Assembly: GCA_003249035.1 (NCBI GenBank)
Contig: QBMK01000004.1
Span: 1-64,000, forward strand
Reading direction: 5' to 3'
Origin: Pseudanabaena sp.
GTDB lineage: Bacteria; Cyanobacteriota; Cyanobacteriia; Pseudanabaenales; Pseudanabaenaceae
DNA: 64,000 nucleotides
In this document: piece by piece, positions 21,064 through 56,961 of the stretch
How the letters are laid out: every line of letters begins with the position of its first letter
Position numbering within the stretch: position 1 is the first letter of the stretch
Program-made: the position numbers and the translations under genes
The notes under the pieces: model-generated
The model's input: the letters and a program-made list of their open reading frames with translations, nothing else
Databases searched by the model: none
Told to the model about the DNA's origin: nothing

Positions 21064-21118
21064 AAAACCCAAAAGATGAGTTGCGGCGCGGAGCGCCGCA
21101 ACTCATCTTTTGGGTTTT
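21064..21118. repeat. perfect 26-bp palindrome between divergent genes
   Basis: Arms 21064-21089 and 21093-21118 are exact complements around GGA, with a GC-rich tip (TTGCGGCGC/GCGCCGCAA). murJ starts to its left and cobD to its right, both pointing away, so it is upstream of both and cannot be an ordinary gene-end terminator. Confidence 0.9.
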
Positions 21119-21261
21119 ATGTCCAAAGCAAAACTTACCTTGCAATTAGGACTTACTCAAGAACCATCCATCGCCTTTTGACTTGCTATATCCTGCTGTG
21201 ACTTAAGACGAACCGTGGGAATGTAGCAAAATAGTTATTAATTCAACTAAAACAATAAACT

Positions 21262-22344
21262 ATGCAATCAAACGATCGCTTACGTCCAATACATGGGGGA
21301 AATCGTCAATGGGCTTCAAGTATCGCTAGTGCATCTCCAGAAAGTATTTTAGATTTCTCTGCTAGCATTAATCCCCTTGGACCCCCTGCATCAGCGATCG
21401 CTGCAATTCAAGCTCATTTAAACGATCTCAATCATTATCCCGATCCCGAATATGCATTGCTCAGGCAAGCCCTAGGAAAGTTTCATCAGCTTGAGTCTGA
21501 CTGGATATTGGCAGGAAATGGTGTAGCCGAGCTATTAACTTGGGTGGGGCGAGATCTTTCGCAATTGTCGGCAACGGTTTTATTTAGTCCAGCATTTACA
21601 GATTATTATCGTGCTCTCAAAACTTTTGATTGCGTAGTGGAAAAATATCCACTGCTGTCTAAAAAAGAGCTTTTTTGTTTGAATGCAGAACTTCCGGAGG
21701 TTGAGGATGCTCAGAAAAAAGGAATATTAATCAATAATCCGCATAATCCAACGGGATATTTATTCTCTAGGGATAGCTTGTTGCCCTATCTTGAGCGGTT
21801 TGCACTGGTGGTAATTGATGAAGCGTTTATGGATTTTCTATCGCCAGAAATACAACAAAGTTTAATCGATCTAGTTCCATCGCATCCTAATTTAGTGATT
21901 TTGCGATCGCTTACTAAGTTTTACAGTTTACCTGGGCTACGTCTTGGCTATGCGATCGCTCATCCAGAGCGTCTACAGCGTTGGCAAGCATGGCGCGATC
22001 CTTGGTGTGTGAATGCTTTGGCAGTAGCAGCAGGAATGGCGGTACTTGAAGATAAGGAATTTCAACAACAAACGTGGACTTGGCTAGCGGAAGCAAGATC
22101 GCAACTATCTACAGGGTTATCGCAAATAACTGGGTTAAGTCCCTTGCCAAATGTTGCTAATTATCTATTAGTAAAAACTGAAGTTGCAGGTTCTATTTTA
22201 CAAAAGGAACTATTGCAAAATGACAAGATTCTCATTCGAGATTGTTTGAGCTTCCCAGAATTAGGCGATCGCTATTTTCGAGTGGCTGTGCGTCTGGAAC
22301 ATGAAAATCAAAAATTGATAAATGCTCTATCAAAGCTAAGTTAG
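21262..22344 (+). CDS. cobD: threonine-phosphate decarboxylase (CobD-like PLP enzyme)
   Basis: It likely makes (R)-1-amino-2-propanol phosphate for the nucleotide loop of cobalamin. The 360 residues belong to class I aminotransferases: N-terminal HGGNRQWA..ILDFSASINPLGPP (the CobD/CobC signature), NNPHNPTG at 158-165, IDEAFMDF, and PLP lysine K219 in RSLTKFYSLPGLRLGY. Histidinol-phosphate aminotransferase is the main alternative, but the N-terminal HGGN and FSASINPLG favour CobD. No other cob genes are adjacent. The 3' end faces the accessory block. Confidence 0.85.
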   Translation: MQSNDRLRPIHGGNRQWASSIASASPESILDFSASINPLGPPASAIAAIQAHLNDLNHYPDPEYALLRQALGKFHQLESDWILAGNGVAELLTWVGRDLSQLSATVLFSPAFTDYYRALKTFDCVVEKYPLLSKKELFCLNAELPEVEDAQKKGILINNPHNPTGYLFSRDSLLPYLERFALVVIDEAFMDFLSPEIQQSLIDLVPSHPNLVILRSLTKFYSLPGLRLGYAIAHPERLQRWQAWRDPWCVNALAVAAGMAVLEDKEFQQQTWTWLAEARSQLSTGLSQITGLSPLPNVANYLLVKTEVAGSILQKELLQNDKILIRDCLSFPELGDRYFRVAVRLEHENQKLINALSKLS

Positions 22345-22367
22345 TGTCATGCGTCGCTTACCTCTAT

Positions 22368-22589
22368 CTACACATAATGCAAAACTGGATTCTGGTGATT
22401 CTTCGTTGAATCTCTGACTAGATCTTGTTGGTGTATGGGTTTGACAATTTGTAAATGTTCTGAAAGTTGCTCTGCAACATTGCGAGGTAGTATCGTAACG
22501 CAGATTTCCATGCCTTTACTATCACGAACAATGGGTAGTCCTAAAAAGGCAAGGATAGGCTGCGCGAAGCGCAGCCTATCCTTGCCTTT
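22368..22589 (-). pseudogene. remnant of an integron-type tyrosine recombinase (IntI/XerC-like)
   Basis: An open stretch with no usable start ends at a stop at 22368. It reads LPIVRDSKGMEICVTILPR and then NVAEQLSEHLQIVKPIHQQDL. This parallels the integron-integrase core segment that follows the catalytic fold, of the form VRDGKGxKDRVTMLP..L..HL..VK.LHEQDL. The following integrase-specific YLPYALERKYP part is absent and replaced by unrelated codons before the stop, and the upstream domain is missing. A long palindrome interrupts the 5' side. The identification is by recall of the family and rests on about 40 residues. Confidence 0.6.
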
Positions 22590-22600
22590 TTAGACTACCC
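22533..22600. repeat. 68-base palindrome at the left edge of the accessory block
   Basis: GGGTAGTC..TAAAAAGGCAAGG and its complement close a stem of about 32 bp with one bulged base and tip GCTGCGC-GAA-GCGCAGC. It lies inside the recombinase remnant, between cobD and the first GC-rich gene. Confidence 0.85.
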
Positions 22601-22687
22601 AGCCTGAACGGTCTAATCACAATTGCAACGGAAGCCCCGACAAGATTTGCGGTAATTCACGCTCACTCTCAAACATCTCACTACCGG

Positions 22688-24181
22688 TCACTTCGACTTC
22701 CTGACCCCGTTCTTTTCGAAATCCGCCTTGGTCGTGTAATAGCCCTTGGGGTAGTAAGGGCCCATCACCTTGGCAAGGTCGCCGGGTTGCGACGGATTGT
22801 ATTTCCAGTCCTTTTGGGGAACGATGAAGCGCATCAACAGAGCGCCCCAGCCCTTGCGGTTGCGCGGGTCGTCGATTCCCTCGCCCGGTCCCCAGTTGAT
22901 CCAGGCGACCCCATCCTTCTCGGTCGCGTTTTTTGGCCGGTCCTCGGGCAAGCTCACCACGATGGTGTAATAGCCGTCTTTGTCCACCGGCACCTGCATG
23001 TCGTACACACCGTCCCACAGGCTGCCATTGGTGAATGATGCCACAGTGGAGACTGACCAGTACTGCACCTCTCCGCCAGGCATGGTCTTGGCGTTAGCCC
23101 AGGTGTTGGGGAAAGTCGGCATTTTCGCACGGAAGACATACACAGGGCCGAATACCCTAGAAGTAAAGTTTACCAGATAGGCTGTCGAGGCATTGGCACC
23201 GCCCCCAGTGCTTTTTGGCACCGGGATCTTTGCCCGCTCCGCCGGTGGCATGAAGGAGCCTTCCACGACGTCCTTCATCCCGGTGAACAGAAAGAATTGC
23301 GAATCTGGGCAGGCGGGCGCTGTGGCCGGTGTCATGCAGGGATTGTTGTTCGGGTTGTTGACCAGCTTATACCAGCCATCAGCTTTAATCGGCGGCGGCG
23401 CTTCACCCATTATCTTGCCGAACCGCTTGGTTGCTTCTTCTTGTGAAAGTTTACTGCCATCGGCGAGCGTCGCCTCGTAGGTCAGACCCGGCCCATCGCG
23501 CGAAGGCACATCCGCCGGACCCAAACCGGTTCCGTCATAGCCTTTGTCCGATACATACATTCGGAAGCCGCCGAGGATCGTCTGAGCTTTGTTGCCGAGA
23601 TAGACCGTGTTCTTCGTCCGTTCTGCCGCGTTCTTGGGCGCGTCCTTGGTCAAAATGCGAACGGTGAAATTGCGCTTTGTTGCGTCCCTGTCAGCGCCCG
23701 CGACGAAAGGATTGGTTGACCCTGCATCGGGTTCTATGTCATAGCCGTCGATCGAGCCGCCGTCGGCACTGACGAATGTATTCCGCTCCCACTGATAGAT
23801 CGAGAAGTTGAAGAACCGAACATGCGGGAACCGACCGCGCACCGTCAGCTCAGTCCCGGCGGGAAGGGCGATTTCACCAAAAAGATAGGTCGGACGCTTG
23901 TCCGGCCAAAGGTTGGGGTTCTGGTAACCTTGCGGAGCAGGAAGAGTATTCCAATAGTCCCAACCGCGTGGCCCGCTGAACAGGCTGCCGTTGTTATAGC
24001 GCTCGTCGGTGCGAAAGATCGCGCCCAGTGGCAGATCGCCGGTGCGCCTGACAGCACTGCCTTTGGCCCGGTTTGCTAAGGTGGAGGGATCGATGTAGGA
24101 ATCCGCAAGTGCCGGAACCGTCATTGCCGCAACGGCTAAAGCCAACGGTGCTGTAAAAAGAAAGTGTCTGCTCGTTTTCAT
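22688..24181 (-). CDS. exported protein of unknown function (possible distant DUF1214/DUF1254 relative)
   Basis: 497 residues with a clear Sec signal peptide (FTAPLALAVAAMTVPALA, cleavage near residue 26), then a periplasmic or secreted body rich in Gly, Pro, Trp and Tyr. Visible landmarks are WDYWNTLPAPQGYQNPNLWP, RFPHVRFFNFSIYQWERNTF, YTIVVSLPEDRPKNATEKDG, and INWGPGEG followed by LLMRFIVPQKDW. The last part recalls the C-terminal DUF1214 module, but I am not sure. Base composition is visibly richer in G+C than flanking genes, codons favour C/G at third positions, and no GCGATCGC occurs in it. This suggests transfer, perhaps from a proteobacterium. It is divergent from the propeller gene. 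Confidence 0.65.
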   Translation of the reverse strand: MKTSRHFLFTAPLALAVAAMTVPALADSYIDPSTLANRAKGSAVRRTGDLPLGAIFRTDERYNNGSLFSGPRGWDYWNTLPAPQGYQNPNLWPDKRPTYLFGEIALPAGTELTVRGRFPHVRFFNFSIYQWERNTFVSADGGSIDGYDIEPDAGSTNPFVAGADRDATKRNFTVRILTKDAPKNAAERTKNTVYLGNKAQTILGGFRMYVSDKGYDGTGLGPADVPSRDGPGLTYEATLADGSKLSQEEATKRFGKIMGEAPPPIKADGWYKLVNNPNNNPCMTPATAPACPDSQFFLFTGMKDVVEGSFMPPAERAKIPVPKSTGGGANASTAYLVNFTSRVFGPVYVFRAKMPTFPNTWANAKTMPGGEVQYWSVSTVASFTNGSLWDGVYDMQVPVDKDGYYTIVVSLPEDRPKNATEKDGVAWINWGPGEGIDDPRNRKGWGALLMRFIVPQKDWKYNPSQPGDLAKVMGPYYPKGYYTTKADFEKNGVRKSK

Positions 24182-24355
24182 TGCTTTCGCTATGCTTGCT
24201 GTTCGCGATCAAGGGATATAGGGATATATAGCATCGCCACTTTGGTTAGGACGCTAGTTGAAGGTTCTGCTCCATTGCCTTCCTGAGGGTATCAAACCTG
24301 GTGGATTGACAAAACTCTTAGAGGCTTTAAGCAGCGCCTCGTTTAAGCTAATAAG

Positions 24356-24600
24356 TTACAACGCTAATCGGCAACAACGAGACTCCAACTTCCCGCGTTT
24401 TATGATGCAATAAAAGTTTTCCTGCGTCAATAGAATATCCCCTGGCGCGATTTCCGCCACCTCAAAGCGCTCTGCTGGATGATGGTGATGGTCGGCATGA
24501 TTGAAAGCCAAAATGTTCATCTGAATGGCTTCGGGGTCTAATGAATAGACTTGCCCAGTTCGGAGTTATACCAACAGTCGATGGCAGCAATTTTAGGATA
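24356..24600 (-). pseudogene. frameshifted 3' remnant of an unidentified gene
   Basis: On the minus strand KIAAIDCWYNSELG is read in one frame and then continues, after a one-base shift, as GQVYSLDPEAIQMNILAF, then NHADHHHHPAERFEVAEIAP and onward through GDILLTQENFYCIIKRGKL to a stop at 24356. The peptide looks like real coding sequence, with plausible composition and a His cluster, but it has no start and is broken near 24550-24560. Base composition is native and A+T-rich. I do not recognise the family. It lies in the 540-base gap between the two divergent foreign genes. Confidence 0.5.
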
Positions 24601-24801
24601 AAATCAATCGCTATGGCTTCTCTCTCTAAATTAGTACATCAAATTCTGGTCACACCCGTTTGAAGCAAAGGGTCCTGAGATTATCAAATCGCTGGAACCA
24701 AAATAATAACAAGGATCTGTATGCCTGCGATCGCGGGCATCCATGACTCCAACCGAGATACTGTTTACCCTAGCAACCTTGGAACCAAAGAGAACATAGA
24801 A

Positions 24802-26472
24802 ATGACACACTCGCAGAATGGTAGCGACAAAGAAGCGAAGCCACCGGATAGAAAGCCCCATTCAACTGCAAAGCCAATTTTCACAGCCTTGGCATTGATT
24901 GTGACTCTTCCTTTGTTAGCTGTGGCAGCATACCTCTTGTTACCTCTTCTAGCCCGAAAGGCTGACTCCGAGGTCGGAAAAATCGGACTTACCTCGAACG
25001 AGATCGCTGCGAACGGACCGCTTCCCGGCGACTTGACTCTGTACGCGCAAGAGTTGGCTTGTCAGGAGAAACTGAAGACTGGCTATTACCCTTCGCTAAA
25101 CGGCGCGGAAATTGCCGACACACAACGGAGCGGCATCTTCCCTTGTGCTACCTTTACTGGATCCTACACAGGTCTCAATCAAGTGTTCGCGTGGCGTAGC
25201 CAGGACGGATACCAGGGAACTTCGTATCTCAACAACCGCAGGCCCGGAGAGATCTTCGTCGTCGGTGGCGACACTCCGCCCTTGAGTGGACCGATGCCGC
25301 CTGGTCCCTATGTGGCTAAGGCTGATGCCACCACCGGCAGACAGATCTGGCGTACCTATCTCCACAACGGGAATACTTCCGATGCATGGATCGGCAACAC
25401 CAATCTGAATATCCTTCCCAACGGCAATATCGTCCAAGCCTGGTCCAACCGCATTGTGTTGCTCGATCCGGACACGGGACTCATTTTGAAAGAGAAGACG
25501 CTGCCCACCGGAGCAACACCGGCGGTTGACGTGAACTTTAAGCATGTGACCATCGCTCCTGACGGAACGCTAATCGTCAAGAACCAGACTCGGCCTACTG
25601 GCTGCACCAAGCAAGGTACTGTAGCACTCATGGTTTGTGCTAATGAGTATAAGAAGTGGGGCAACTCGATCTTGCTGGCTCTCAACCCCGACACGCTCGA
25701 AGTGATCGACGCCATTGAATTGCCGCAACCGGCTGTAGTTCCCCACACCATCACGAACTTCGAGGACAAGATCGCGATCTACATCGGTGCGAACAGCGGA
25801 GCCTTCCGTTATTTCTGGGACCCGAAAACAAAGAAACTCTCCCAAGACACCTCCTGGATTCCAGAAGTGCTGGAGGCTGGTCAAACCACCCCAGCCGCAC
25901 CCAGCATTCTTGGTGACTGGATTGTCTTTCAAACCAACGGCATACTCAGCAATAAGAAGGCTTCGAGCATCGTCGCCGTCAGCGCTAAAGACCCGACGAA
26001 GTTGAAAAGGATCTTTCCCTTCGGGCAAATTAAGGATCGCGAGGTAAGTTTTGCCCCGCCGAAGCCCCAAACTGACCCAGAAAACAGCATGATTTATTCG
26101 GCTGATATGGGGATGGGGAAAGTTGCGGGCATCACGATCGACCAGGCAACAGGCGAGTTGAAGACCAAGTTTGTCCTCGATAACCCGACTAGCGGATTCC
26201 AGCCTCTCTATGGACAGAAGGATAAGCGCGTCTTGGTCATTTCCAACTTCAAGAGCAATGTGCCAGAGCTGCCGCTTCAAGCGATGCTCGCTACCCAAAG
26301 TTACAAGGAACAAGTCACTTGGCGAGATGCATCGACCGGCCGAGTTCTGGCTGAGTCTGATTTCTTCGAACCGATGGGACTCAACAACCTGATCACTCCG
26401 GGCTTCGGCGGGCGAGCGTATTACTTGACGAATAAGGGATTCATAGTGCTGCAAGTTCTTCCGAAACGATAG
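24802..26472 (+). CDS. membrane-anchored PQQ-like beta-propeller protein
   Basis: About 556 residues from ATG 24802. An in-frame ATG at 24721 lies upstream in native-looking A+T-rich DNA. A hydrophilic N-terminus precedes one membrane span (about residues 25-50). The rest is extracytoplasmic and looks like a propeller. Repeated blades pair a hydrophobic strand with a turn: VAKADATTGRQIWRTYLHNG, LLDPDTGLILKEKTL, LLALNPDTLEVIDAIELP, AGITIDQATGELKTKFVLD, TWRDASTGRVLAES. These resemble PQQ-dehydrogenase or quinoprotein-like repeats, but no PQQ-binding or catalytic residues can be assigned. It has four cysteines. It is G+C-rich, lacks HIP1, and is followed by the arylsulfatase on the same strand. 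Confidence 0.6.
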   Translation: MTHSQNGSDKEAKPPDRKPHSTAKPIFTALALIVTLPLLAVAAYLLLPLLARKADSEVGKIGLTSNEIAANGPLPGDLTLYAQELACQEKLKTGYYPSLNGAEIADTQRSGIFPCATFTGSYTGLNQVFAWRSQDGYQGTSYLNNRRPGEIFVVGGDTPPLSGPMPPGPYVAKADATTGRQIWRTYLHNGNTSDAWIGNTNLNILPNGNIVQAWSNRIVLLDPDTGLILKEKTLPTGATPAVDVNFKHVTIAPDGTLIVKNQTRPTGCTKQGTVALMVCANEYKKWGNSILLALNPDTLEVIDAIELPQPAVVPHTITNFEDKIAIYIGANSGAFRYFWDPKTKKLSQDTSWIPEVLEAGQTTPAAPSILGDWIVFQTNGILSNKKASSIVAVSAKDPTKLKRIFPFGQIKDREVSFAPPKPQTDPENSMIYSADMGMGKVAGITIDQATGELKTKFVLDNPTSGFQPLYGQKDKRVLVISNFKSNVPELPLQAMLATQSYKEQVTWRDASTGRVLAESDFFEPMGLNNLITPGFGGRAYYLTNKGFIVLQVLPKR

Positions 26473-26589
26473 ACCACAGTAGCTGTCGCCGAGATTGCTG
26501 ACATAAGCAATCTCGGCGTATCCGAGTAGAATTTTGAATTATCATTATAAATTATTAGAAGTTGTGAAAATTAGCCTAAGATTGCGGCT

Positions 26590-26683
26590 ACTCCCTTCCC
26601 AGTCTAAAAATAGACAGTAAAACCCAAGAAATAGTGGTGCGGCGCTCCGCGCCGCACCACTATTTCTTGGGTGGGAAGGGAGT
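26590..26683. repeat. compound palindrome with nested stems
   Basis: An outer 11-bp stem (ACTCCCTTCCC at 26590-26600 with GGGAAGGGAGT at 26673-26683) encloses two hairpins. One is small (GTCTA/TAGAC, about 26602-26615). The other has 24-bp arms (26622-26645 and 26649-26672) with loop TCC and a GC-rich tip. It would fold as a three-way junction. It sits between the propeller and arylsulfatase genes. Confidence 0.85.
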
Positions 26684-26724
26684 AAGAATTTTTTCGACAA
26701 CTAGGTACTCTCTATCTAGCAATT

Positions 26725-29289
26725 ATGCTTAAAAAACTCAAAAACCTGCTCGATCGCTTCTTGCCAAAACAATTCCAGCCGATAGTTGCTGGAGTATTGA
26801 CGATGGTCATGGCGGTCACCTCTAGCTTCTGGTTAGCTCCTTTGAGCGCCCAACAGATCTTCGGCACTCTCGGTTCACCCAGTGCCACCATGTCCATCAA
26901 GGGGGATCAACTTCCTGCCCCAGCTCCCAAATTTGGCGGAGTGATCAAGGACGGCGCCCTGCAATCCAAGCCATGGTGGGCACCTCGCATCGTGCCGCCC
27001 CAGGACGCCCCCAACGTGCTGCTGATCATCACTGACGACTCTGGGTTCGGCGTACCAAGTACGTTCGGCGGTGTGATTCCAACTCCGACCATGGATTTCA
27101 TTGCTAGTGAGGGCTTGCGCTACAACCGGATGTTCTCGACCGCGCTATGTTCTCCGACTAGAGCTGCGCTGATCACTGGGCGTAACCACCACTCAGTTGG
27201 GTTTGGTGTGATCTCCGAGCAGTCCACTGGTTTCCCCGGCTATAACAGCATTATTGAACGGGACAAGGCGACGATCGGCCGCATGCTAAAGGACAACGGC
27301 TATTCCACCGCATGGTTTGGCAAGGATCACAACGTACCAGCGTTCCAAGCTAGTCAGGTTGGTCCCTTCGACCAGTGGCCGATCGGCATGGGCTTCGAGT
27401 ACTTCTATGGCTTTATCGGTGGCGATGCTAACCAGTGGCAACCCAACCTGTTCCGCAACACTACGCAGATTTATCCTTTCAAGGGTAAGGAAGGGAAATG
27501 GAACCTTATTACTGGCATGGCTGATGACGCGATCGATTACATGACGCGGATGAATCAGATCAGTCCCAGCAAGCCGCTCTTTATCAAGTACGCTCCTGGC
27601 GCCACCCATGCTCCGCACCATCCGACTCAGGAATGGGTGGACAAAATTCACTCGATGAAATTGTTTGACGATGGCTATGAAAAGCTGCGCGAACGTATCT
27701 TTGAGAACCAGAAGAAACTTGGCGTAATTCCTAAGGATGCAAAGCTGACGCCCTGGCCCAGTGACTTGCTGACACCTTGGGATAAGCTCACCGCAGACGA
27801 GAAGAAGCTCTTTATTCGTCAAGTCGAGGTCTTTGCTGCCTACAGTGCCTATAACGACTACGAAGTCGGGCGTGTGGTTAAGCAATTCCAAGATCTCGGC
27901 AAGCTTGACAATACACTGATCATCTACATTAACGGTGACAACGGCACCAGTGCCGAGGGTGGTCCTCTGGGTACGCCAAATGAGGTGGCTTTCTTTAATG
28001 GCTTGAATAAGCTGCCTGCTGAAGTACAGCTGAAGTTTTATGATGTCTGGGGTACTGAGCAGACCTACAACCACATGTCTGCTGGCTGGTCGTGGGCTTT
28101 CGACACCCCGTTTGATTGGTTCAAACAAAATGCTTCCCGTCTGGGTGGCGTTAACCAGAATATGGTGGTGTCTTGGCCGGCGCGCATCAAGGATAAAGGA
28201 GCTTTACGCGAGCAGTTTGTCCATGTGATCGATGTCGTGCCGACAATCATGGAAGCCGCTGGCATCCGCCCACCCGAAGTTGTTGATGGCATCAAGCAAT
28301 CGCCGATCGAGGGCACCAGCTTCCTTTACACCTTCGACGCCAAGAACGCCAAGGCTCCCTCGCGCCACACCACTCAGTACTTTGAAATGATGGGTCAGTG
28401 GGCATTGTATAAGGACGGCTGGGTTCTCAGCACCAAGGTGAATCGTGCCCCTTGGGAAGCATTTGGAGCCGCCAACCCAGATCCACTGAACAACCAAGTA
28501 TTCCAGCTCTACAACCTGAACGATGACTTCACCCAGTCTCAAGACATCGCGGCGCAAAACCCGCAAAAGGTGAAGGAAATGAAGCAGGAGTTCCTGGCAG
28601 AGGCAAGAAAGTATCAGGTCTTCCCGTTTGATGCTTCGGTGGCTGCTCGCATCGTTGCCCCTCGACCCAACATCACAGCAGGTCGTAGCGAGTTCGTATA
28701 CACCCGGCCGATGGTCGGTCTGCCCCAGGGTGACTCACCGGTCTTGCTCAACACCTCCTACACCGTCACGGCTGACATTGACGTACCGCAAGGTGGCACT
28801 GAGGGCATGATGCTGACCTCTGGCGGGCGCTTTGGTGGTTATGGCTTCTACCTGCTCAAGGGCAAACCAGTATGGCTCTGGAATCTGGTTGACCTCGAAC
28901 GTCTCAAGTGGGAGGGCTCAGATGCGCTCACCCCCGGCAAGCATACTGTGGAGTTCGACTTCAAGTACGATGGTCTGGGTGCCGGCACACTCCTCTTCAA
29001 TAACTTCTCTGGCGTCGGACGCCCTGGCGTTGGTATGCTAAAGGTTGATGGCAAGGTAGTTGCTACTAAGACTATGCCCAAGACCCTGCCGATGATCCTG
29101 CAATGGGATGAGAGCTTTGATATTGGCTCCGACACCCTGACTGGGGTGAATGACGCCGATTACAGACCTCCATTCGCGTTCACAGGCAAGCTCAACAAGC
29201 TGACTGTGAAGCTCGATCGCCCACAACTTACACCGGAAGATATCAAGAAACTCGAAGCTGCTCAACGCAACAACCGCGTTTCTGAGTAG
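26725..29289 (+). CDS. large exported arylsulfatase
   Basis: It hydrolyses sulfate esters, probably outside the cytoplasm. The 854 residues begin with a signal sequence (hydrophobic about 20-43, ending LSAQ). The sulfatase domain (about 94-520) carries metal-binding D104-D105 in IITDDSG, the catalytic C142 in CSPTRAALITGR (to be oxidised to formylglycine), and THAPHHPTQEW. The C-terminal part (about 690-835) resembles a beta-sandwich. No formylglycine-generating enzyme is seen in the window. Most of the gene is G+C-rich without HIP1 octamers, whereas the first 25-30 codons look native. It is convergent with an ABC permease. Confidence 0.88.
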   Translation: MLKKLKNLLDRFLPKQFQPIVAGVLTMVMAVTSSFWLAPLSAQQIFGTLGSPSATMSIKGDQLPAPAPKFGGVIKDGALQSKPWWAPRIVPPQDAPNVLLIITDDSGFGVPSTFGGVIPTPTMDFIASEGLRYNRMFSTALCSPTRAALITGRNHHSVGFGVISEQSTGFPGYNSIIERDKATIGRMLKDNGYSTAWFGKDHNVPAFQASQVGPFDQWPIGMGFEYFYGFIGGDANQWQPNLFRNTTQIYPFKGKEGKWNLITGMADDAIDYMTRMNQISPSKPLFIKYAPGATHAPHHPTQEWVDKIHSMKLFDDGYEKLRERIFENQKKLGVIPKDAKLTPWPSDLLTPWDKLTADEKKLFIRQVEVFAAYSAYNDYEVGRVVKQFQDLGKLDNTLIIYINGDNGTSAEGGPLGTPNEVAFFNGLNKLPAEVQLKFYDVWGTEQTYNHMSAGWSWAFDTPFDWFKQNASRLGGVNQNMVVSWPARIKDKGALREQFVHVIDVVPTIMEAAGIRPPEVVDGIKQSPIEGTSFLYTFDAKNAKAPSRHTTQYFEMMGQWALYKDGWVLSTKVNRAPWEAFGAANPDPLNNQVFQLYNLNDDFTQSQDIAAQNPQKVKEMKQEFLAEARKYQVFPFDASVAARIVAPRPNITAGRSEFVYTRPMVGLPQGDSPVLLNTSYTVTADIDVPQGGTEGMMLTSGGRFGGYGFYLLKGKPVWLWNLVDLERLKWEGSDALTPGKHTVEFDFKYDGLGAGTLLFNNFSGVGRPGVGMLKVDGKVVATKTMPKTLPMILQWDESFDIGSDTLTGVNDADYRPPFAFTGKLNKLTVKLDRPQLTPEDIKKLEAAQRNNRVSE

Positions 29290-29300
29290 GGACAATTTTG

Positions 29301-29335
29301 GCGATCGCATTACTTTAATTGGTTAATGCGATCGC
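29301..29335. repeat. palindrome with a HIP1 octamer in each arm
   Basis: GCGATCGCATTA (29301-29312) and TAATGCGATCGC (29324-29335) are complementary around an 11-base loop, just after the arylsulfatase stop. HIP1, absent from the foreign genes, reappears here at the block edge. Confidence 0.75.
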
Positions 29336-29360: not shown

Positions 29361-29464
29361 ATACCAAAACACAAAATGGCTATGCCATTTTGTGTTTTTT
29401 AAGCCATTATTGGGTTTGGTTTTTAATTCACAAAAGTGTCTGCACACTTTTGTGAATTAGTATT
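29361..29464. repeat. family A repeat, full copy
   Basis: ATACCAAAACACAAAATGGC-TAT-GCCATTTTGTGTT is followed by a middle AAGCCATTATTGGGTTTG segment, the AATTCACAAAAGTGT/ACACTTTTGTGAATT palindrome and AGTATT. It has the same layout as the copy at 6605 and ends on the stop codon of the following permease gene. Confidence 0.88.
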
Positions 29465-31199
29465 AAACAACTAATTGATATTTGACCTGAGCTAATCGAT
29501 AAAGTGGTCGCCATACTAAGCGGTTAGTTGTGACAACTAGTAGCGACATCACAATTGTGGAAGCTAATAAAAGAGGGAAATCTCCCACGTCCGAGGCTTG
29601 TGTAATCGTCGAGCCTAGACCTGTTGCTGTAAGAACTCTTCCTTGAAATTTGACATATTCACCCGCAATACTTGCATTCCATGCTCCACCAACGGCTGTA
29701 ATAATTCCTGTCACTAAATAAGGGAAAATTCCCGGCAAGATCAGAGTTTTCCACCGTTGCAAGGACGAAAGCTTATACACTCGCGCTGCTTCAAATAGTT
29801 CCGAAGGAATAGCTTGCGCTCCAGCAATTACATTGAAGAGAATGTACCACATACTTCCTAAAGTCATCAGGATCACTGCGCCAATCTCCAATCCACCAGC
29901 TATATTCCCTAAATATAGTAATAGAACTGGAAATAGAGCCGTCGCAGGAACTGAAGCCGCAATTTGAACAATTGGTTGCAAAAATTGGGCTAGCTTAGGA
30001 TTGCGCCCGATTGATACACCGATTGGAACTGTGATTATCAAAGAAATAATTAGGACGATGAATACTCGAATAGATGTAAAAAGAGCACCGATCGCTACCT
30101 GTTTCCATGAACTCAATGGCATATGACTCAGTAATGCGATCGCGCTTGATGTCCCACTCAAAACAATAAAACCTGTTAACCCCACTAATAGCCAGTTAAA
30201 CCAATTAATCCATTTTGATGCTTTATACTGAGCGATTAGAGAGCTTGGAGCTTTGCGCCTAAAGCCATGATTGACAGCTTCCGAGATCGGCATAAACAGG
30301 CGATCGCTAATAATTCGCATCGTAGGCGATCGCCTTAAAAAGTCTAAGACTCGCGATTCTGGGACTTGAGCAGCTTCAACTGTCTCATTCTTGAACTTCT
30401 CTGCCCAAGCAATTAGAGGTCGCCACACAAAATAATCAATGATCGTAATTATGCCGATTAAAACTGCCAGTCCAGTAAAAATTGCCCGATTATCGCCTGC
30501 ATCCGCCGCTGCCTTCAAAAACGAACCTAGTCCTGGAAGTGTAAAGTCTCGATTAGAAAGCGTGAAAGATTCTGTTTGCATTAAAAAGAACCATCCACCC
30601 GCAACAGACATCACACTATTCCAAACTAGCCCGACTGCACCTGAAGGTAATTCTAGAGTCCAAAAACGTTGCCAAGCACCGAGACGATAAACTTGGCTTG
30701 CCTCGATCAATTCTTGGGGAATACTAGATAGCGATTGATAGAAACTAAAGGTCATATTCCAAGTCATGCCAGTAAAAATCAGCAAGATCGAAGCAATTTC
30801 TATTCCCATTCTTTGCCCAGGGAATAGACTAACTAAAGCAAGTACAACCGCAGGTAAAAACGACAGCACTGGAATAGATTGGAGAACGTCTAATAATGGA
30901 ATGAGAACTTTTTCCCATAAAGTAGAACGATAAGCAACATAGGCATACAATAGACTAAAAACTAATGAGATAGAATATGCAGCTAGCATTCTTACTAATG
31001 TCTGCAATGCATAACTAGGTAAGAAGCTCAGCGATAAATTAACTACATAGCCATTTTCGTATGTACCTGTAAAATTTCTAGCAGTCTGCACAATGATGAA
31101 TATAAAAGCAATGATCGCTAAAGGTAATAAAACATCACCAAGGCTCCAACGCGAGCTAAATTTTGATTTTGGATCGATAGTGGGCTGATACATGAGCAA
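29463..31199 (-). CDS. ABC transporter permease with two fused permease domains
   Basis: 578 residues carrying two binding-protein-dependent permease domains (about 75-275 and 350-570), each with five to six spans and an EAA loop. The first loop is QELIEASQVYRLGAWQRFW, the second SELFEAARVYKLSSLQRWK. The loop signature and WNSV/WNAS segments resemble the NitT/TauT (nitrate, sulfonate, bicarbonate) class, of which two-domain permeases occur in bacteria. An ATPase and a binding protein would be needed but are not adjacent, so the substrate is unknown. It converges with the arylsulfatase. Confidence 0.85.
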   Translation of the reverse strand: MLMYQPTIDPKSKFSSRWSLGDVLLPLAIIAFIFIIVQTARNFTGTYENGYVVNLSLSFLPSYALQTLVRMLAAYSISLVFSLLYAYVAYRSTLWEKVLIPLLDVLQSIPVLSFLPAVVLALVSLFPGQRMGIEIASILLIFTGMTWNMTFSFYQSLSSIPQELIEASQVYRLGAWQRFWTLELPSGAVGLVWNSVMSVAGGWFFLMQTESFTLSNRDFTLPGLGSFLKAAADAGDNRAIFTGLAVLIGIITIIDYFVWRPLIAWAEKFKNETVEAAQVPESRVLDFLRRSPTMRIISDRLFMPISEAVNHGFRRKAPSSLIAQYKASKWINWFNWLLVGLTGFIVLSGTSSAIALLSHMPLSSWKQVAIGALFTSIRVFIVLIISLIITVPIGVSIGRNPKLAQFLQPIVQIAASVPATALFPVLLLYLGNIAGGLEIGAVILMTLGSMWYILFNVIAGAQAIPSELFEAARVYKLSSLQRWKTLILPGIFPYLVTGIITAVGGAWNASIAGEYVKFQGRVLTATGLGSTITQASDVGDFPLLLASTIVMSLLVVTTNRLVWRPLYRLAQVKYQLVV

Positions 31200-31687
31200 T
31201 CCAGACTAAGAGATTAATTTGATGATTTACTGATATCGCAATTTCCAAAGGAGTAAGAGCCCAATCGTTTTTTACAGATTAAGCATAGATAAAACCTCTG
31301 TCCAGACTATATTTAACCTCATTAAGTATTAAACTCTTTGACTAAATACGTGATGAAGTTTAGATGTTTTGTTCGAGCAATTAAAAATAAGTATAATTCT
31401 CCTGAAATTGAGTGGAATTAGTCAAATCATGAAAAGGCTACAGTCACTTTGTGATTTTAAAACCCTCACGGGGTTTGTGCTTTAATTCAAAAAAGTATCG
31501 CCGCACTTTTTGAATTGGTATTAGAATCATTTTGCGAGACATCAAAAGAATTCAATTAAACAGTAAAAGAAACCCTTCTCTGCAGATAGAGGGAAGGAAA
31601 ATTCAAGGGTGGGGTGGAAGTTAGAGATGAGTTACTCCCCCCTATGAAGATTGAAGCTCAGAAATTTTCTTCTCAGAGAGATCAGAG
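31200..31687. other. intergenic region between permease and VOC genes
   Basis: A 488-base gap holding a partial family A repeat (31453-31522) and otherwise no credible frame on either strand. It is the leader of the minus-strand permease and the trailer of the VOC-purF pair. Confidence 0.5.
31453..31522. repeat. family A repeat, partial copy
   Basis: AAAACCCTCACGGGGTTTG (the middle segment) is followed by AATTCAAAAAAGT/ACTTTTTGAATT arms and the terminal TTGGTATTA. The GGC/GCC palindrome half is missing. Confidence 0.7.
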
Positions 31688-40081: not shown

Positions 40082-40204
40082 TTTTTCCTCTATTGCCTTT
40101 TGTCTCAAGTTGTCCATATATTTTTTATATATTTTTAAAGACAGCGATCGCCACAGCCGTTATAACCTCAAAGCCTATCAAATCACTACAATTGTTTTTA
40201 ACAA

Positions 40205-40233
40205 TTGACTTTGTAAGATAGACTTTGTTATAG
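40205..40233 (+). promoter_or_regulatory. candidate promoter of the str cluster
   Basis: TTGACT (40205-40210), a 17-base spacer and TTATAG (40228-40233, or TATAGT one base on) lie about 50 bases upstream of rpsL. This is a good sigma-70-type match. Confidence 0.5.
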
Positions 40234-40285
40234 TTGTATGCTGTTGATTAGAATACACAGCCGCAGATATACCAAATCATCACTT

Positions 40286-40699
40286 ATGCCCACGATCCAA
40301 CAGCTCATCCGTAGTGAGCGCCAAACCATAATTACAAAGACAAAGTCTCCTGCACTAAAAAGCTGTCCTCAACGCAGGGGAGTATGTACTCGTGTCTACA
40401 CTACAACACCTAAAAAGCCCAACTCTGCACTTAGAAAGGTTGCACGGGTACGTTTGACTTCTGGCTTTGAAGTCACTGCATATATCCCTGGGATTGGGCA
40501 TAACCTCCAAGAACACTCAGTTGTGATGATTAGAGGCGGTCGTGTAAAAGATTTACCAGGTGTGCGTTATCACATCATCCGTGGAACTCTTGATACTTCG
40601 GGTGTTAAAGATCGTAAGCAAGGACGCTCCAAGTATGGTGCTAAGCGACCTAAACCAGGTCAAGCTGCCGCTGCCAGCACTGGCAAGAAGAAGAAGTAA
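40286..40699 (+). CDS. rpsL: 30S ribosomal protein S12
   Basis: A decoding-centre protein of the small subunit. The 137 residues start [12 protein letters not shown] and contain [37 protein letters not shown] and [21 protein letters not shown]. The C-terminus is longer than usual and ends GKKKK. An upstream in-frame ATG at 40238 would overlap the promoter and is rejected. It is the first gene of rpsL-rpsG-fusA-tufA, with 84 bases to rpsG. Confidence 0.97.
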
Positions 40700-40783
40700 G
40701 AATCATCCGTAAAAGGTTTTAGCAACCATTTAGCAAATTAGTAAAATTAGTAATTCATTTTATAAGGTGAATTTAGTACCAAG

Positions 40784-41254
40784 ATGTCCCGTAGAACGAA
40801 AGCTTCCAAGCGCATAACTCCACCTGACTCTGTTTATAACAGCCGTCTCATCACTATGCTTACTCGTCGTGTAATGTCACGTGGTAAGTATTCTGTAGCT
40901 TCACACATTGTCTACAAAGCTCTTGATACAATTGGCGAACGTACTGGCAATCCACCTCTAGAGGTGTTTGACCGTGCAATCCGTAATGCTACACCATTGG
41001 TAGAAGTTAAAGCTCGTCGTGTTGGTGGTGCTACCTATCAAGTCCCGATGGAAGTCCGCACTGATCGTGGCGTTGCTCTAGCACTTCGTTGGCTAGTCCA
41101 ATATTCTCGCTCTCGTGCCGGACGCAGCATGGTAACAAAGCTGGCTAACGAATTAATGGATGCTGCCAATGAAACTGGCCAAACCATCCGTAAACGTGAA
41201 GAAACCCACAAAATGGCAGAAGCAAACAAAGCTTTCGCTCACTATCGTTACTAA
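40784..41254 (+). CDS. rpsG: 30S ribosomal protein S7
   Basis: It nucleates assembly of the small-subunit head. The 156 residues show [46 protein letters not shown] and the C-terminal [16 protein letters not shown]. The length is standard. It is the second gene of the str cluster, 84 bases before fusA. Confidence 0.97.
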
Positions 41255-41338
41255 CCTAACGTTATTAAACTTTAGCTTGCCTCGCTATACTATTCTTAAT
41301 ATAAATTTTTAATTCCTGACAAACACGAGGAAACTATT

Positions 41339-43420
41339 GTGGAACGCTCTATTGCCTTAGATAAGGTACGCAATATAGGTATTGCGGCGCATATTGACGC
41401 TGGTAAAACCACAACTACAGAGCGTATTCTCTTTTACTCTGGCGTTGTGCACAAGATCGGTGAAGTCCATGATGGAACTGCAACGACAGACTGGATGGCG
41501 CAAGAACGCGAACGCGGCATCACAATCACTGCAGCAGCAATTAGCACCAGTTGGAAAGATCATCGCATTAACATTATCGATACCCCTGGACATGTAGACT
41601 TCACAATTGAAGTTGAACGTTCCATGCGAGTACTTGATGGCGTAGTTGCGGTTTTCTGCGCTGTAGGTGGTGTGCAACCTCAGTCTGAGACAGTATGGAG
41701 GCAAGCAGATCGATATAAAGTGCCTCGCCTTGTATTCGTTAACAAAATGGATCGCATGGGTGCGAATTTTTTGCGAGTAAGGGAACAAATTCGTGCTCGT
41801 TTTGGCTCCAACGCTGTCCCTATCCAGTTACCTATCGGTAGTGAAGCAGAACTGGTAGGAATTATCGATCTCGTCAAAATGAAAGCCTATATCTATAAAG
41901 ACGAAATAGGCAAGGATATCGAAGAAATAGATATTCCTGCTGATTTAGTCGAACTCACCAATGAATGGCGCGGTAACCTGCTTGAATCAGTTGCCGATTC
42001 AGATGATGTTTTGATGGAAAAATATCTTGAAGGTGAAGAACTAACCGAAGAAGAGGTCAGAATTGGTCTCCGCAAGGGAACTTTGAGCGGCTCAATCGTT
42101 CCGATGACTTGTGGTTCAGCATTCAAAAATAAAGGCGTACAGCTTTTACTCGATGCTGTGATCGATTATCTTCCCGCTCCTAGCGACGTTAAGCCAGTTA
42201 CTGGTTTGTTGCCAAATGGCGAAGAAGCTATTCGTGAAGCCAAGGATGATGCCCCCATGTCGGCACTTGCTTTCAAGATCATGGCTGATCCTTACGGTCG
42301 TCTTACCTTTGTTCGTGTTTACTCTGGCATCTTGAAGAAAGGTTCCTACGCATTAAACTCCAGCAAAAACAAGAAGGAACGTATCTCGAGACTAATTATC
42401 TTGAAAGCTGATGATCGTCAAGAGGTCGATGAACTCAGAGCTGGAGATCTTGGAGCAGTATTGGGACTAAAAGACACCTTTACCGGTGATACCCTTTGTG
42501 ATGATACTTCTCCGATTGTGCTTGAGACTCTGTTTATTCCCGAACCTGTGATTTCTGTGGCTGTAGAGCCAAAGACAAAGCAGGATATGGAAAAACTATC
42601 CAAAGCCTTGCAATCTCTTTCTGAAGAAGATCCTACCTTCCGAGTCATGACCGATCCAGAAACCAATCAAACGATTATCTCTGGTATGGGTGAGCTTCAT
42701 CTTGAAATTCTTGTTGATCGGATGAAGCGTGAGTTTAATGTTGAAGCTAATGTAGGTGCGCCTCAAGTTGCTTATCGCGAGACTATCCGCAAGACCGTCA
42801 CTGATATTGAAGGCAAATTTGCTCGTCAAAGTGGTGGTAAGGGTCAATATGGTCACGTTGTGATCAATTTAGAGCCTACCGAACCTGGTACAGGATTTGA
42901 ATTCGTATCGAAGATCGTTGGCGGTGTCATTCCTAAGGAATTCATCAAGCCTTCTGAGCAGGGTATGAAAGAAGCCTGTGAATCGGGAATTCTTGCAGGT
43001 TATCCTGTGATTGACCTCAGAGCTACTCTTGTGCATGGTTCTTTCCACGATGTTGACTCTTCAGAAATGGCTTTTAAAATTGCTGGTTCTATGGCAATCA
43101 AGGAAGCTGTGATGAAAGCTCAGCCAGTCTTGCTAGAACCAATGATGAAGGTTGAAGTCGAAACTCCTGAAGACTACATGGGTGATGTAATCGGCGATCT
43201 TAGTCGTCGTCGCGGTAATATCGCTGGCATGGAAGATACCCCATCTGGAAAAAGCGTTGAGGCAAGGGTTCCTTTGTCTGAGATGTTTGGTTATTCTACT
43301 GACCTTCGCTCGTCAACCCAAGGTAGGGCAAGCTTCTCAATGGAATTTAGCCATTACGAAGAAGTACCGAAAAATGTGGCAGAAGCCATCATTGCTAAAA
43401 ACAAGGGCAAAAAAGAGTAG
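41339..43420 (+). CDS. fusA: elongation factor G
   Basis: The translocation GTPase. The 693 residues have G1 AHIDAGKT (17-24), [21 protein letters not shown] and the full five-domain length, ending [11 protein letters not shown]. The start codon is GTG at 41339, preceded by a GAGGA Shine-Dalgarno sequence. It is the third gene of the str cluster. The spacer to tufA carries tandem small palindromes. Confidence 0.97.
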
Positions 43421-43440
43421 TCCTTTAAAATACTCGACAA

Positions 43441-43503
43441 ATACTCTATAAACTAGAGTAATAATTACCGAAAAATGCTCTATGTACTAGAGTAACAATT
43501 ACT
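43441..43503 (+). repeat. tandem near-repeat with palindromes in the fusA-tufA spacer
   Basis: Two imperfect copies of about 28-35 bases (ACTCTATAAACTAGAGTAAT.. and GCTCTATGTACTAGAGTAAC.., each followed by AATTAC) stand head to tail. Each includes a CTCTA/TAGAG stem. They lie 25-87 bases upstream of the tufA start. Confidence 0.8.
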
Positions 43504-43527
43504 AAATTTAAGGATAATTACGAAAAA

Positions 43528-44793
43528 ATGGCACGCGCTAAATTCGAGAGAAACAAACCCCACGTCAATATTGGTACTATCGGTCACGTTGACCATGGTA
43601 AGACAACCCTAACTGCTGCAATCACGATGTCTTTGGCAGCTGCAGGTCAAGCAACAGCCAAGGCATATGACCAAATTGATGCTGCTCCAGAAGAAAAGGC
43701 TCGCGGAATTACGATCAATACTGCTCACGTTGAGTATGAAACCTTAGCTCGTCACTATGCTCACGTTGACTGTCCTGGTCACGCTGACTATGTTAAAAAC
43801 ATGATCACCGGTGCTGCACAAATGGATGGAGCAATTCTCCTCGTGTCTGCCGCCGATGGCCCTGAGCCTCAAACCCGTGAGCACATTTTGCTAGCACGTC
43901 AGGTTGGCGTACCTAACCTTGTGGTTTTCTTGAACAAAGAAGACCAAATGGAAGGCGAAGAAGAACTAGTTGAACTCGTTGAGTTAGAAGTTCGTGAGTT
44001 GCTATCTTCCTATGACTTTGACGGGGACAATATTCCGATCACTCGTGGTTCTGCCCTGAAAGCAGTTGAAGCAATGACTGCTAACCCTAAAACTGCTAAA
44101 GGAGATAATCCTTGGGTTGACAAGATTTGGGCTTTGATGGAATCTGTGGATGAGTTTATCCCTACTCCTGAGCGTGATGTTGATAAGCCTTTCTTGATGG
44201 CTGTTGAAGATGTGTTCTCGATTACTGGTCGTGGCACGGTTGCTACAGGTCGGATTGAGCGCGGTACTGTTAAAGTTGGCGATGTTGTTGAGCTTGTTGG
44301 TATCACTGATACTCGCACTACAACCGTAACTGGTATTGAAATGTTCAAGAAGAGCCTAGAGCAAGGCTTGGCTGGAGACAATGCTGGTCTATTGCTTCGT
44401 GGTATCCAGAAAGATGAAATTGAGCGCGGCATGGTTTTGGCTAAGCCTAAGTCGATTAATCCTCATACTCAGTTTGAAGGTGAGGTTTACATATTGACTG
44501 AGAAAGAAGGTGGTCGTAAGACTCCTTTCTTCCCTGGTTATCGTCCTCAGTTCTATGTACGTACGACTGACGTAACTGGAACCATTGTTACCTTCACGGC
44601 TGATGATGGTAGCGAAGCTGAGATGGTTATGCCTGGCGATCGCATCAAGATGACAGTGGATCTAATCAACCCAATCGCAATTGAGCAAGGAATGCGCTTT
44701 GCGATTCGTGAAGGTGGTCGTACTGTTGGATCTGGTGTTGTCAGTAAGATTCTTGACGCTCCTAAGGGCGGTGACGACAAGAAGAAGAAATAA
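43528..44793 (+). CDS. tufA: elongation factor Tu
   Basis: It delivers aminoacyl-tRNA to the ribosome. The 421 residues contain GHVDHGKT (19-26), [22 protein letters not shown], and NKED in place of NKxD. The segment [20 protein letters not shown] is typical of cyanobacterial EF-Tu, and the C-terminus ends GGDDKKKK, which makes it somewhat long. An AAGGATAA Shine-Dalgarno precedes the ATG. It is the last gene of the cluster. The rpsJ gene that follows tuf in many cyanobacteria is not here. A strong terminator comes next. Confidence 0.97.
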
Positions 44794-52525: not shown

Positions 52526-52836
52526 ACTTGAATCCATTCGTGGATTTCGTAATCAGTCCAAATGCCATTCTGCCAATAAATATCGTCTTCAACCAGCTGC
52601 CGCGCCGCCGCTATATCGGGTGCAACATAAACTGCAAATACTTTGGTCAAATCTTGAGTTGGCCCAATTGTCAGTAAGCTGCCAGATTCATACATGTATT
52701 TGATGTTATCAAGATGGACTTGGCGAAAAGGTGCACGTTTTTCTAGTACGTTTTCGCAATAGCTGCCCCACACTACAAATTTTTTAAGTTCAGTGTTCAA
52801 TTCTCTACCGATTCCTATAGATATAAATTCATACAT
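52519..52836 (-). CDS. YciI-like protein
   Basis: 105 residues with the ferredoxin-like YciI/muconolactone-isomerase-type fold: FVVWGSYCENVLEKRAPFRQVHLDNIKYMYESGSLLTIGPTQD, KVFAVYVAPDIAAARQLVEDDIYWQNGIWTDYEIHEWIQVY. The conserved His (VHLDNIK) and Asp (GPTQD) of the family are present. YciI proteins are small, possibly catalytic, of unknown role. The start codon lies inside the 3' arm of a perfect 29-bp hairpin, so translation initiation may be structurally masked. Confidence 0.85.
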   Translation of the reverse strand: MYEFISIGIGRELNTELKKFVVWGSYCENVLEKRAPFRQVHLDNIKYMYESGSLLTIGPTQDLTKVFAVYVAPDIAAARQLVEDDIYWQNGIWTDYEIHEWIQVY

Positions 52837-52886
52837 AAAATAATAGGGGCGTGCTTTGCACGCCCCTATTATTTTATGTATGAATT
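52826..52886. repeat. perfect 29-bp palindrome covering the YciI start codon
   Basis: Arms 52826-52854 and 52858-52886 are exact complements around TTT, with a GC-rich tip (GGGGCGTGC/GCACGCCCC). On the minus strand it follows the stop of the 58-residue gene by 7 bases and contains the ATG and first codons of the YciI gene. It could terminate transcription of the small gene or sequester the YciI start. Confidence 0.92.
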
Positions 52887-54881: not shown

Positions 54882-56477
54882 TTAACGTGTTGCTGGTAGA
54901 GAAGGTGCGGCTTTAGGTGAAGCAGTAGGCGAAGGATTAACATTAGGCGGCGAAGTACTTGGCGAAGTAGTAGCTGATGGCTTAACTTGCGCTGGTTCAG
55001 CTTTTTTCTTTTCTCCCAGAATGCTAGGGCTGCCGTCGTCAAATACACCTGCAATGCAAGAAATCATTAAGGTCGCTAATGTACCAACAAATAATGCTTT
55101 CCATCCCAATTCAGAAATATCATGTCGGCGCGAAGGGATCAGGGCTATAGTTCCACCAACGAAAATCCCTACAGAGGCAAGATGGGCGAATCCCGATAAG
55201 GCATAACTTACGATGATTACAGTGCGATCGCTAATTAAGCCATCCTTCGCAGCCTGAGCCAAGGCCTGATAGGGCGGGATCGCTGTCTCTAACAAGCGAC
55301 GACCAATAATTACCGAAGCCGTCCAAGAATCATCCAGTGATACGCCTGTAAGTAAAGTCAAAGGATAAAATAAGGCTCCTTGAATATTTGGTAGATTAAC
55401 TACCTTGAAAATGTCACTGATAGTAGCCAGCCAACCAAAAATTTGGTTAACGAGATCGACTAAACCTACGATCAAGATCAAAATTGCAGCGATCGAAGCT
55501 GCCATTTTAAGCCCATCCAAAGCCCCAATAATCGTTGCATCCATGGGACTCATCCGCTTCATCGTCTCACCACCTGCATTTTCGAGTTCACCATCCTCAA
55601 CTGGCTTCGCTGATTTGTCTTCCCTAGGAATTCCACCCATCGTCAGAGGTACGCCAGTTTCAGGCACAAGAATTTTCGACAACACAAAACAAGCGGGGAT
55701 CGCAATGATTGATGCGGACACCAAGTGCCCCAGGATATTTGGGAAAACGGGGCGCAAAAAACTAACATAAATTGCTAAGGTCGAAGAAGCCGCCGTCCCA
55801 AAGCAACAAGCCAAAATTGCACATAGTTCACTGCGCGTCATTTTGGGGAGATAAGGCTTAACCACGATCGCAGCTTCAATACCCACAAAAATGTTTGCTG
55901 CACCGCTCAGAGCCTCAGCACCACTCAAGCGCATTGTCCAGAAAAATAACTTAGCAAACACATCCACAATTCTCTGGATAATGCCAAGATTTTCCAGCAA
56001 AGCCATAAACCCTGAGAAAAACACCACTGCAGGCAAAGCACGAAAGGCGAATACATAAGCCAAACGATTTGTAGTACAGAAATTAGCTGCGGCATTCCCT
56101 ACACTCGTTAAATCATCTAATAGAACCTGTCCTGGAGGGCAAGTACCATCAGGTCTGAGTGGCAACAACACATAAGGCTCTTGCCCTGTTGGGGGCACAA
56201 GTAATCGCCCAAAGACAAACCTAGCGCCAGTATCTGCCGAGGCAAAGAGTCCATCCAACAATTCGCTAAACCATCGCAATCCATCTCTAGTTTGCGGCTG
56301 CTGAAACACTAAATAGCCCAGTACTAACTGCAAGCCAATTCCCCAGATAATGACACGCCAAGAAATGACTCGGCGATCTTCTGAGAAAAGCCAAGCCACA
56401 AAGCACAAGCCAAAAATGCCAAAGAAAGAAACAAAATTCAGGTAGGTCATGGGCGTTTGAGTGTGTGATTTAGTCAA
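54882..56477 (-). CDS. NupC/CNT-family nucleoside transporter
   Basis: Cation-coupled nucleoside uptake. The 531 residues include an N-terminal three-span region (possible true start MTYLNF, ten residues in). Next come ADTGARFVFGRLLV, FAFRALPAVVFFSGFMALLENLGIIQ, SGAEALSGAANIFVGIEAAIVVKPYLPKMTRSELCAILACCFGTAASST, and TGVSLDDSW..GRRLLETAIPPYQAL. Between FVFG and FAFRALP lies an extra hydrophilic insert of about 45 residues with two cysteines. The last 60 residues are Pro/Ser/Ala-rich and disordered. Substrate preference cannot be read. Confidence 0.88.
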   Translation of the reverse strand: MTKSHTQTPMTYLNFVSFFGIFGLCFVAWLFSEDRRVISWRVIIWGIGLQLVLGYLVFQQPQTRDGLRWFSELLDGLFASADTGARFVFGRLLVPPTGQEPYVLLPLRPDGTCPPGQVLLDDLTSVGNAAANFCTTNRLAYVFAFRALPAVVFFSGFMALLENLGIIQRIVDVFAKLFFWTMRLSGAEALSGAANIFVGIEAAIVVKPYLPKMTRSELCAILACCFGTAASSTLAIYVSFLRPVFPNILGHLVSASIIAIPACFVLSKILVPETGVPLTMGGIPREDKSAKPVEDGELENAGGETMKRMSPMDATIIGALDGLKMAASIAAILILIVGLVDLVNQIFGWLATISDIFKVVNLPNIQGALFYPLTLLTGVSLDDSWTASVIIGRRLLETAIPPYQALAQAAKDGLISDRTVIIVSYALSGFAHLASVGIFVGGTIALIPSRRHDISELGWKALFVGTLATLMISCIAGVFDDGSPSILGEKKKAEPAQVKPSATTSPSTSPPNVNPSPTASPKAAPSLPATR

Positions 56478-56904: not shown

Positions 56905-56961
56905 GTATTGATCCAGTTGCTTCACATTCTTTCGCAATCACAGGTCTTGAGCAATAATCCA

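Follow-up and report, generated by a model that had tools for sequence, protein, structure and literature searches.

A candidate laterally acquired module for sulfate-ester hydrolysis, with two undescribed accessory families, in a Pseudanabaena genome

We analyzed a three-gene block in a 64,000-nucleotide stretch of the Pseudanabaena sp. genome (assembly GCA_003249035.1, contig QBMK01000004.1, positions 1 to 64,000; hereafter the window). The block is probably a laterally acquired module for the hydrolysis of sulfate esters outside the cytoplasm, in the periplasm. It consists of three intact open reading frames (ORFs), whose coordinates and reading frames had been given correctly in the initial annotation, which was made from the sequence alone. 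Gene 1 (22688-24181, minus strand) encodes an exported protein of 497 amino acids (aa) of no known family. Gene 2 (24802-26472, plus strand; longest ORF from 24721) encodes a predicted membrane-anchored beta-propeller of 556 aa, and gene 3 (26725-29289, plus strand) encodes an exported type I (formylglycine) arylsulfatase of 854 aa. Most likely, the module comprises this sulfatase and two undescribed accessory families, a beta-sandwich protein and a membrane-anchored propeller. All three proteins are directed outside the cytoplasm, as had been proposed: gene 1 and the sulfatase have N-terminal hydrophobic signal-like segments, and gene 2 has a transmembrane helix at about residues 29-50. Pairs of these genes adjoin in unrelated bacteria, and therefore the three genes probably cooperate on some sulfated compound.

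The foreign origin of the block, suspected in the initial annotation, appears well supported by its composition, its absence in relatives, a break in DNA similarity, and the sulfatase tree. The G+C content (GC) and the G+C content at third codon positions (GC3) are 0.577 and 0.691 in gene 1, 0.532 and 0.621 in gene 2 (from its likely start at 24802), and 0.536 and 0.634 in the sulfatase gene. As the reference we used the 44 remaining ORFs of the window that encode 120 aa or more; their mean GC is 0.437 (standard deviation (sd) 0.024) and their mean GC3 is 0.381 (sd 0.041), with a maximum GC3 of 0.469. The three genes, which had been described as G+C-rich, are thus GC3 outliers by 5.8-7.5 sd and not of normal composition. 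The octamer GCGATCGC has 83 copies in the window, and only one was observed in 22396-29300, where 9.8 were expected (Poisson P 0.0006). This copy, at 24727, lies within the longest gene 2 ORF (from 24721) but ahead of the likely start at 24802, and the earlier statement that the three genes are free of the octamer is true with that start. Other long gaps without GCGATCGC are present at 40144-44636 and 55224-59021. Since gaps of similar length occur elsewhere in the window, the octamer gap alone is weak, and it is GC3 that carries the case for foreign origin.

Homologues of the three genes in other organisms have GC3 values of 0.77-0.90. The block lies between these and the host values, suggesting that it is partly ameliorated and has been resident for some time. 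This intermediate GC3 also bears on an assembly or binning artefact, in which DNA of another organism has been joined to cyanobacterial DNA. The assembly is a draft in 60 contigs and the block is alien in composition, as such an artefact would predict, but host genes flank the block on both sides, host-style palindromes lie inside it (at 22541 and 26622), and it holds the GCGATCGC copy at 24727 in addition to being partly ameliorated. We therefore consider an artefact extremely unlikely.

DNA similarity to a relative of the same genus (G008) extends over 21237-22395 and 29461-31234, with none between. The two flanking genes are found in 24-25 of 25 genomes of the genus but are not adjacent in the relatives; because they are unlinked there and the gene order is scrambled, a clean empty site is not demonstrable. 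Homologues were searched for in sampled genomes, non-exhaustively. Gene 1 was found at high score in one of 386 cyanobacterial genomes, namely this genome alone, and gene 2 was found in one of 58 relatives, again this genome alone. Outside the Cyanobacteria, gene 1 was present at high score in one of 149 genomes of Eremiobacterota (the phylum of locus L028) and in two of 297 genomes of the phylum of locus L029, which is Myxococcota by the label of the tree program and Deltaproteobacteria by the title of the genome; genomes G296 and G950, discussed below, belong to the same phylum. Gene 2 was found in three of 395 genomes of that phylum, one of them as a fragment. Far relatives of gene 1 are commonest in the phylum of locus L030. 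A tblastn search of plasmids gave no match for gene 2 and two far matches only for gene 1. The profiles of both genes had no match in the viral contigs searched, so that no phage carrier was seen.

The sulfatase matches Pfam PF00884 with an E value of 3.2e-48 (165 bits, cut-off 25), and its formylglycine motif CSPTR is at residues 142-146. It was aligned with 7all and with the Pseudomonas aeruginosa arylsulfatase 1hdh, also of PF00884. In the pairwise alignment with 1hdh, the DD, GK-H, PHHP, and DNG motifs and a late lysine, which are metal and sulfate ligands, correspond. The two enzymes share the alpha/beta domain, CSPTR, and the ligand motifs, whereas the window sulfatase is larger (854 aa) and has a signal-like segment and a C-terminal extension of ~220 aa. 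The initial annotation had raised the question of a formylglycine-generating enzyme (FGE) elsewhere in the genome, and two PF03781 genes were found on contig C22 (E 3e-78 and 5e-82; L035:9077-10138 and L036:6886-7893), each adjoining other sulfatases. With CSPTR, the ligand motifs, and the FGE genes of the host, it is plausible that the sulfatase is active as an enzyme. The region of contig C22 at about 196.6-215.9 kb (L035 and L036) holds four sulfatases, the two FGE genes, and a haloacid dehalogenase (HAD)-type hydrolase. It also contains two copies of an undescribed exported protein of ~210 aa, and a similar protein adjoins a DUF1254 gene in G296 (L070:18016-18705).

Related sulfatases are encoded on a plasmid of Synechocystis sp. 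B12 (CP101712.1, 90% identity), on a Microvirga plasmid (80%), and in Ruegeria (68%), and the cyanobacterium G045 has an 81%-identical sulfatase directly 3' of an FGE-like gene. In the phylogenetic tree, the window sulfatase groups with that of B12 (support 100/99), then with G045, and then with Microvirga, among alphaproteobacterial plasmid genes. The sulfatases of the same genus and of Nostoc (~49% identity) are separate from the window copy, which is therefore not of the genus's own type. Sulfatases of this ~49% type from the same class and the same genus (L012, L015, L016, and L017) each carry one reported in-frame TAA. On the B12 plasmid (L031:7362-12592), the reading frames of the 90%-identical sulfatase and of its FGE are each broken up, by recent decay or sequencing error, with the pieces lying in several frames.

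These relatives include arylsulfatase cassettes carried on plasmids in Alphaproteobacteria and in a small number of Cyanobacteria, in which the same sulfatase subfamily (from 90% in B12 to ~57% identity) is combined with an FGE and in some cases with DUF2092 and DUF1254/DUF1214 genes; a recombinase is located near two copies. The order in B12 is AraC, DUF1254/DUF1214, FGE, DUF2092, a Gly-rich protein, and the sulfatase. Unlike these cassettes, the window has genes 1 and 2 and no adjoining FGE, DUF2092, or DUF1254 gene. Pairwise ratios of nonsynonymous to synonymous substitution (dN/dS, NG86 method) are about 0.15 for gene 1 and about 0.10 for gene 2 against L028, and 0.06-0.07 for the sulfatase against G045, B12, and Microvirga. 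These ratios indicate purifying selection on all three families, but they are no proof of function in this host, because most of the divergence may have arisen in other hosts.

Gene 1 has no family in Pfam, NCBIfam, or PHROGs. Its homologues are 71% identical in Eremiobacterota (L028), 58% in Myxococcota (L029), and 53% in Micromonosporaceae. Weak similarities of profile and fold suggest a relation to the DUF1254/DUF1214 proteins (PF06863 and PF06742; structure VPA0735), to which the gene 1 family is fused in G296, although gene 1 itself, unlike those proteins, is below the cut-off for both Pfam families. One of 25 members of the gene 1 superfamily weakly matches DUF1214 (E 0.0016). In hhalign, both halves of gene 1 align to one DUF1214 region, with E values of 0.004 and 0.03 for a single comparison but an unconvincing probability of 8%. 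The AlphaFold model, built on an alignment of four sequences only, has a predicted local distance difference test (pLDDT) score of 40, and the top fold match of this low-confidence model is VPA0735 (Z 6.9 over 137 residues), tied with unrelated beta-sandwiches. A profile search of PDB sequences gave no credible match for gene 1. Its product is probably formed of tandem beta-sandwich domains distantly like DUF1214, and the evidence for kinship with DUF1214 is suggestive. A far relative of gene 1 (29% identity) is present on the P. aeruginosa plasmid pPAMH19 (L032:7830-9209). It clusters with short-chain dehydrogenase/reductase (SDR), sterol desaturase, DUF1302, DUF1329, YCF48-related, and MMPL genes, with mercury resistance adjoining. 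We found nothing useful in the literature on DUF1254, DUF1214, DUF2092, or DUF3604, or on Pseudanabaena with sulfatase.

Gene 2 is 66% identical to its homologue in L028 and 56% identical to that in G296. The start at 24802 is likelier than that at 24721 because the G296 homologue has a membrane helix near its start. The match to Pfam PQQ_2 (E 0.0026, 17.9 bits) is under the cut-off of 27.6, and a profile search of PDB sequences gave no credible match. The AlphaFold model (mean pLDDT 47, alignment of two sequences only) is of low confidence, and its best match is YxaL (Z 19.8 over 267 residues, root-mean-square deviation 3.1). Comparisons with YxaL, BamB, and tetrathionate hydrolase, all eight-bladed-type propellers, gave Z scores of about 18-20. 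Judged from this model, gene 2 encodes a membrane-anchored beta-propeller of the eight-bladed type. It shares the propeller fold and the extracytoplasmic location with BamB, YncE, and PQQ-like propellers and tetrathionate hydrolase; it is distinguished from these proteins by its N-terminal helix anchor, the sub-threshold PQQ_2 match, and an identity of about 12-16%. Of the earlier description as a membrane-anchored, pyrroloquinoline quinone (PQQ)-like propeller, the anchor and, by model, the fold were retained, whereas PQQ binding is not established.

Linkage of the three families in other genomes was then the ground on which a functional set, proposed in the initial annotation, could be judged, and it was found pairwise in other phyla. 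In L028 (Eremiobacterota), gene 1 (71%) is followed on the same strand by gene 2 (66%), with 36 bp between them. In G296, the first half of a 950-aa fusion (L070:8652-11504) comprises DUF1254 (PF06863, 5e-45) and DUF1214 (PF06742, 2.5e-39), the second half is a gene 1 homologue (47%), and gene 2 (56%) begins 60 bp after the fusion. Another DUF1254 gene and MCE/Mla-type transporter genes, assigned by reading of the sequence, are located upstream of this pair. Next to the fusion are also a transposase-like gene and a second copy of the propeller, which is truncated. In G950, the sulfatase is 77% identical to that of the window over 823 aa, and a C-terminal remnant of gene 2 (33 aa, 70%, tblastn E 5e-12) lies directly 3' of it, followed by DUF2092 and a Gly-rich protein. 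In L029, a 39%-identical sulfatase is followed, after about 1 kb, by gene 1 (58%), and the cluster also contains DUF2092, a Gly-rich protein, and DUF3604. Two further cases involve more distant members: a far gene 2 homologue adjoins a sulfatase with a twin-arginine translocation (Tat)-like signal in G968, and in G1320 a gene of the gene 1 superfamily has a 4-bp overlap with a sulfatase gene. A sulfatase is present in four of nine loci, compared with one of 29 loci of far gene 1 relatives only (Fisher one-sided P 0.0075). The nine loci were located via genes 1 or 2 and never via sulfatases, and the contigs are of unequal length.

Several observations weigh against cooperation of the three genes as one module. 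In the other genomes examined the links are pairwise, and none of these genomes joins the three genes in intact form; around the nearest sulfatases (B12, G045, and Microvirga), the flanks examined contain neither gene 1 nor gene 2. In the window, gene 1 is oriented away from genes 2 and 3, unlike the operon of L028 and G296. The far gene 1 relatives have no sulfatase nearby in 28 of 29 cases, and the Fisher test draws on a small set of loci gathered in the course of the study, so that its P value is a guide only. The structure models of genes 1 and 2 are of low confidence (pLDDT 40 and 47). With no other genome examined holding the three intact together, gene 1 inverted, debris between genes 1 and 2, and the nearest sulfatases without partners, the three genes may or may not have arrived together.

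Such observations would fit a gene sink, in which separate transfers entered a tolerant spot and the genes adjoin by chance, with the sulfatase scavenging sulfur on its own and genes 1 and 2 serving some unrelated role. The absence of genes 1 and 2 near the closest sulfatase relatives, the 540 bp of debris between the divergent genes 1 and 2, an integrase remnant that suggests repeated insertions, and the somewhat higher GC3 of gene 1 (0.69) than of gene 2 and the sulfatase are all in its favor. However, three kinds of pairs recur in other phyla, which is not expected from random separate arrivals, and we regard the sink as unlikely. In another alternative, genes 1 and 2 were acquired as one unit that handles a hydrophobic compound by way of DUF1254/DUF1214 and transport of the MCE or MMPL type, with the sulfatase as a passenger or later arrival. 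Genes 1 and 2 are indeed the tightest pair (in L028, and in G296 with the DUF1254-DUF1214 fusion and the adjoining MCE/Mla-type set); no sulfatase is present in the 19 kb examined around the G296 pair, nor in the pPAMH19 cluster of DUF1302, DUF1329, YCF48, and MMPL genes with the far gene 1 relative. This explanation is nevertheless very unlikely, considering that the gene 2 remnant of G950 directly adjoins a 77%-identical sulfatase and that gene 1 in L029 is about 1 kb from a sulfatase. We thus favor a sulfate-ester hydrolysis module. The proposal of a functional set is supported by the recurrence of the gene 1/gene 2, gene 2/sulfatase, and gene 1/sulfatase pairs; its second part, a sulfated substrate, is not established.

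The borders of the block contain further features. A remnant of an integron-integrase-type tyrosine recombinase with ~40 recognisable residues is located at 22390-22560 on the minus strand. It aligns to positions 152-191 of the 315-position NCBIfam profile TIGR02249 (E 0.0012), a weak but real match, and is 50% identical to an annotated integron integrase of a Kovacikia plasmid; the recombinase remnant reported earlier is therefore present, if weak. Large palindromes are located at 22541-22593 (25-bp arms), probably a genome-wide mini-repeat, and at 26622-26672 (24-bp arms), in the gap that separates gene 2 from the sulfatase and in the style of the palindromes in the host flanks. Palindromes with arms of at least 18 occur about once per 8 kb across the whole window, and the long near-perfect ones are at 21064-21118, 22541-22593, 26622-26672, and 52826-52886. 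The stretch holding the first of these has multicopy relatives on Pseudanabaena plasmids, in agreement with the genus given for the host. The palindromes, taken as border features in the initial annotation, were rejected as borders of an element, being ordinary repeats of the genus dispersed throughout the window. The non-coding spacer between the divergent genes 1 and 2 (24182-24720) contains, by six-frame reading, a broken ORF at ~24390-24580 on the minus strand. The pseudogene noted earlier thus exists as a broken ORF, but it has no match in Pfam, NCBIfam, PHROGs, or plasmids.

We propose a pathway for the module based on these gene contexts and predicted structures. An FGE encoded elsewhere, on contig C22, would activate the cysteine of the sulfatase, and the mature enzyme, in the periplasm, would desulfate an organic sulfate ester. 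The membrane-tethered propeller and the beta-sandwich protein of gene 1 may assist by binding the substrate, by presenting it, or by keeping the enzyme in position; DUF1254/DUF1214 proteins, to which the gene 1 protein may be related, accompany such sulfatases. Sulfate and the desulfated product would then be taken up, with the release of sulfate possibly serving nutrition. As a guess, the substrate could be a hydrophobic sulfate ester, because gene 1 relatives adjoin MCE/Mla-type genes in G296 and DUF1302, DUF1329, YCF48, and MMPL genes on pPAMH19. A bolder proposal, which we consider distinctly unlikely, is that genes 1 and 2 represent two undescribed families, a DUF1214-like beta-sandwich protein and a membrane-tethered propeller, that are obligate partners of one clade of large exported sulfatases and present a hydrophobic sulfate ester to the enzyme, forming a mobile sulfur-acquisition system exchanged among Myxococcota, Eremiobacterota, Proteobacteria, and Cyanobacteria.

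Annotations usually present a sulfatase as a stand-alone enzyme, and in most cases its substrate is a guess. Two accessory families that recur as a pair and have no Pfam name would provide a testable handle on the target of this sulfatase clade. They would also place a relative of the DUF1254/DUF1214 proteins, for which we found no explanation in the searchable literature, in a functional context for the first time, and the block would be a rare recorded case of a cyanobacterial lineage importing a sulfur-related module.

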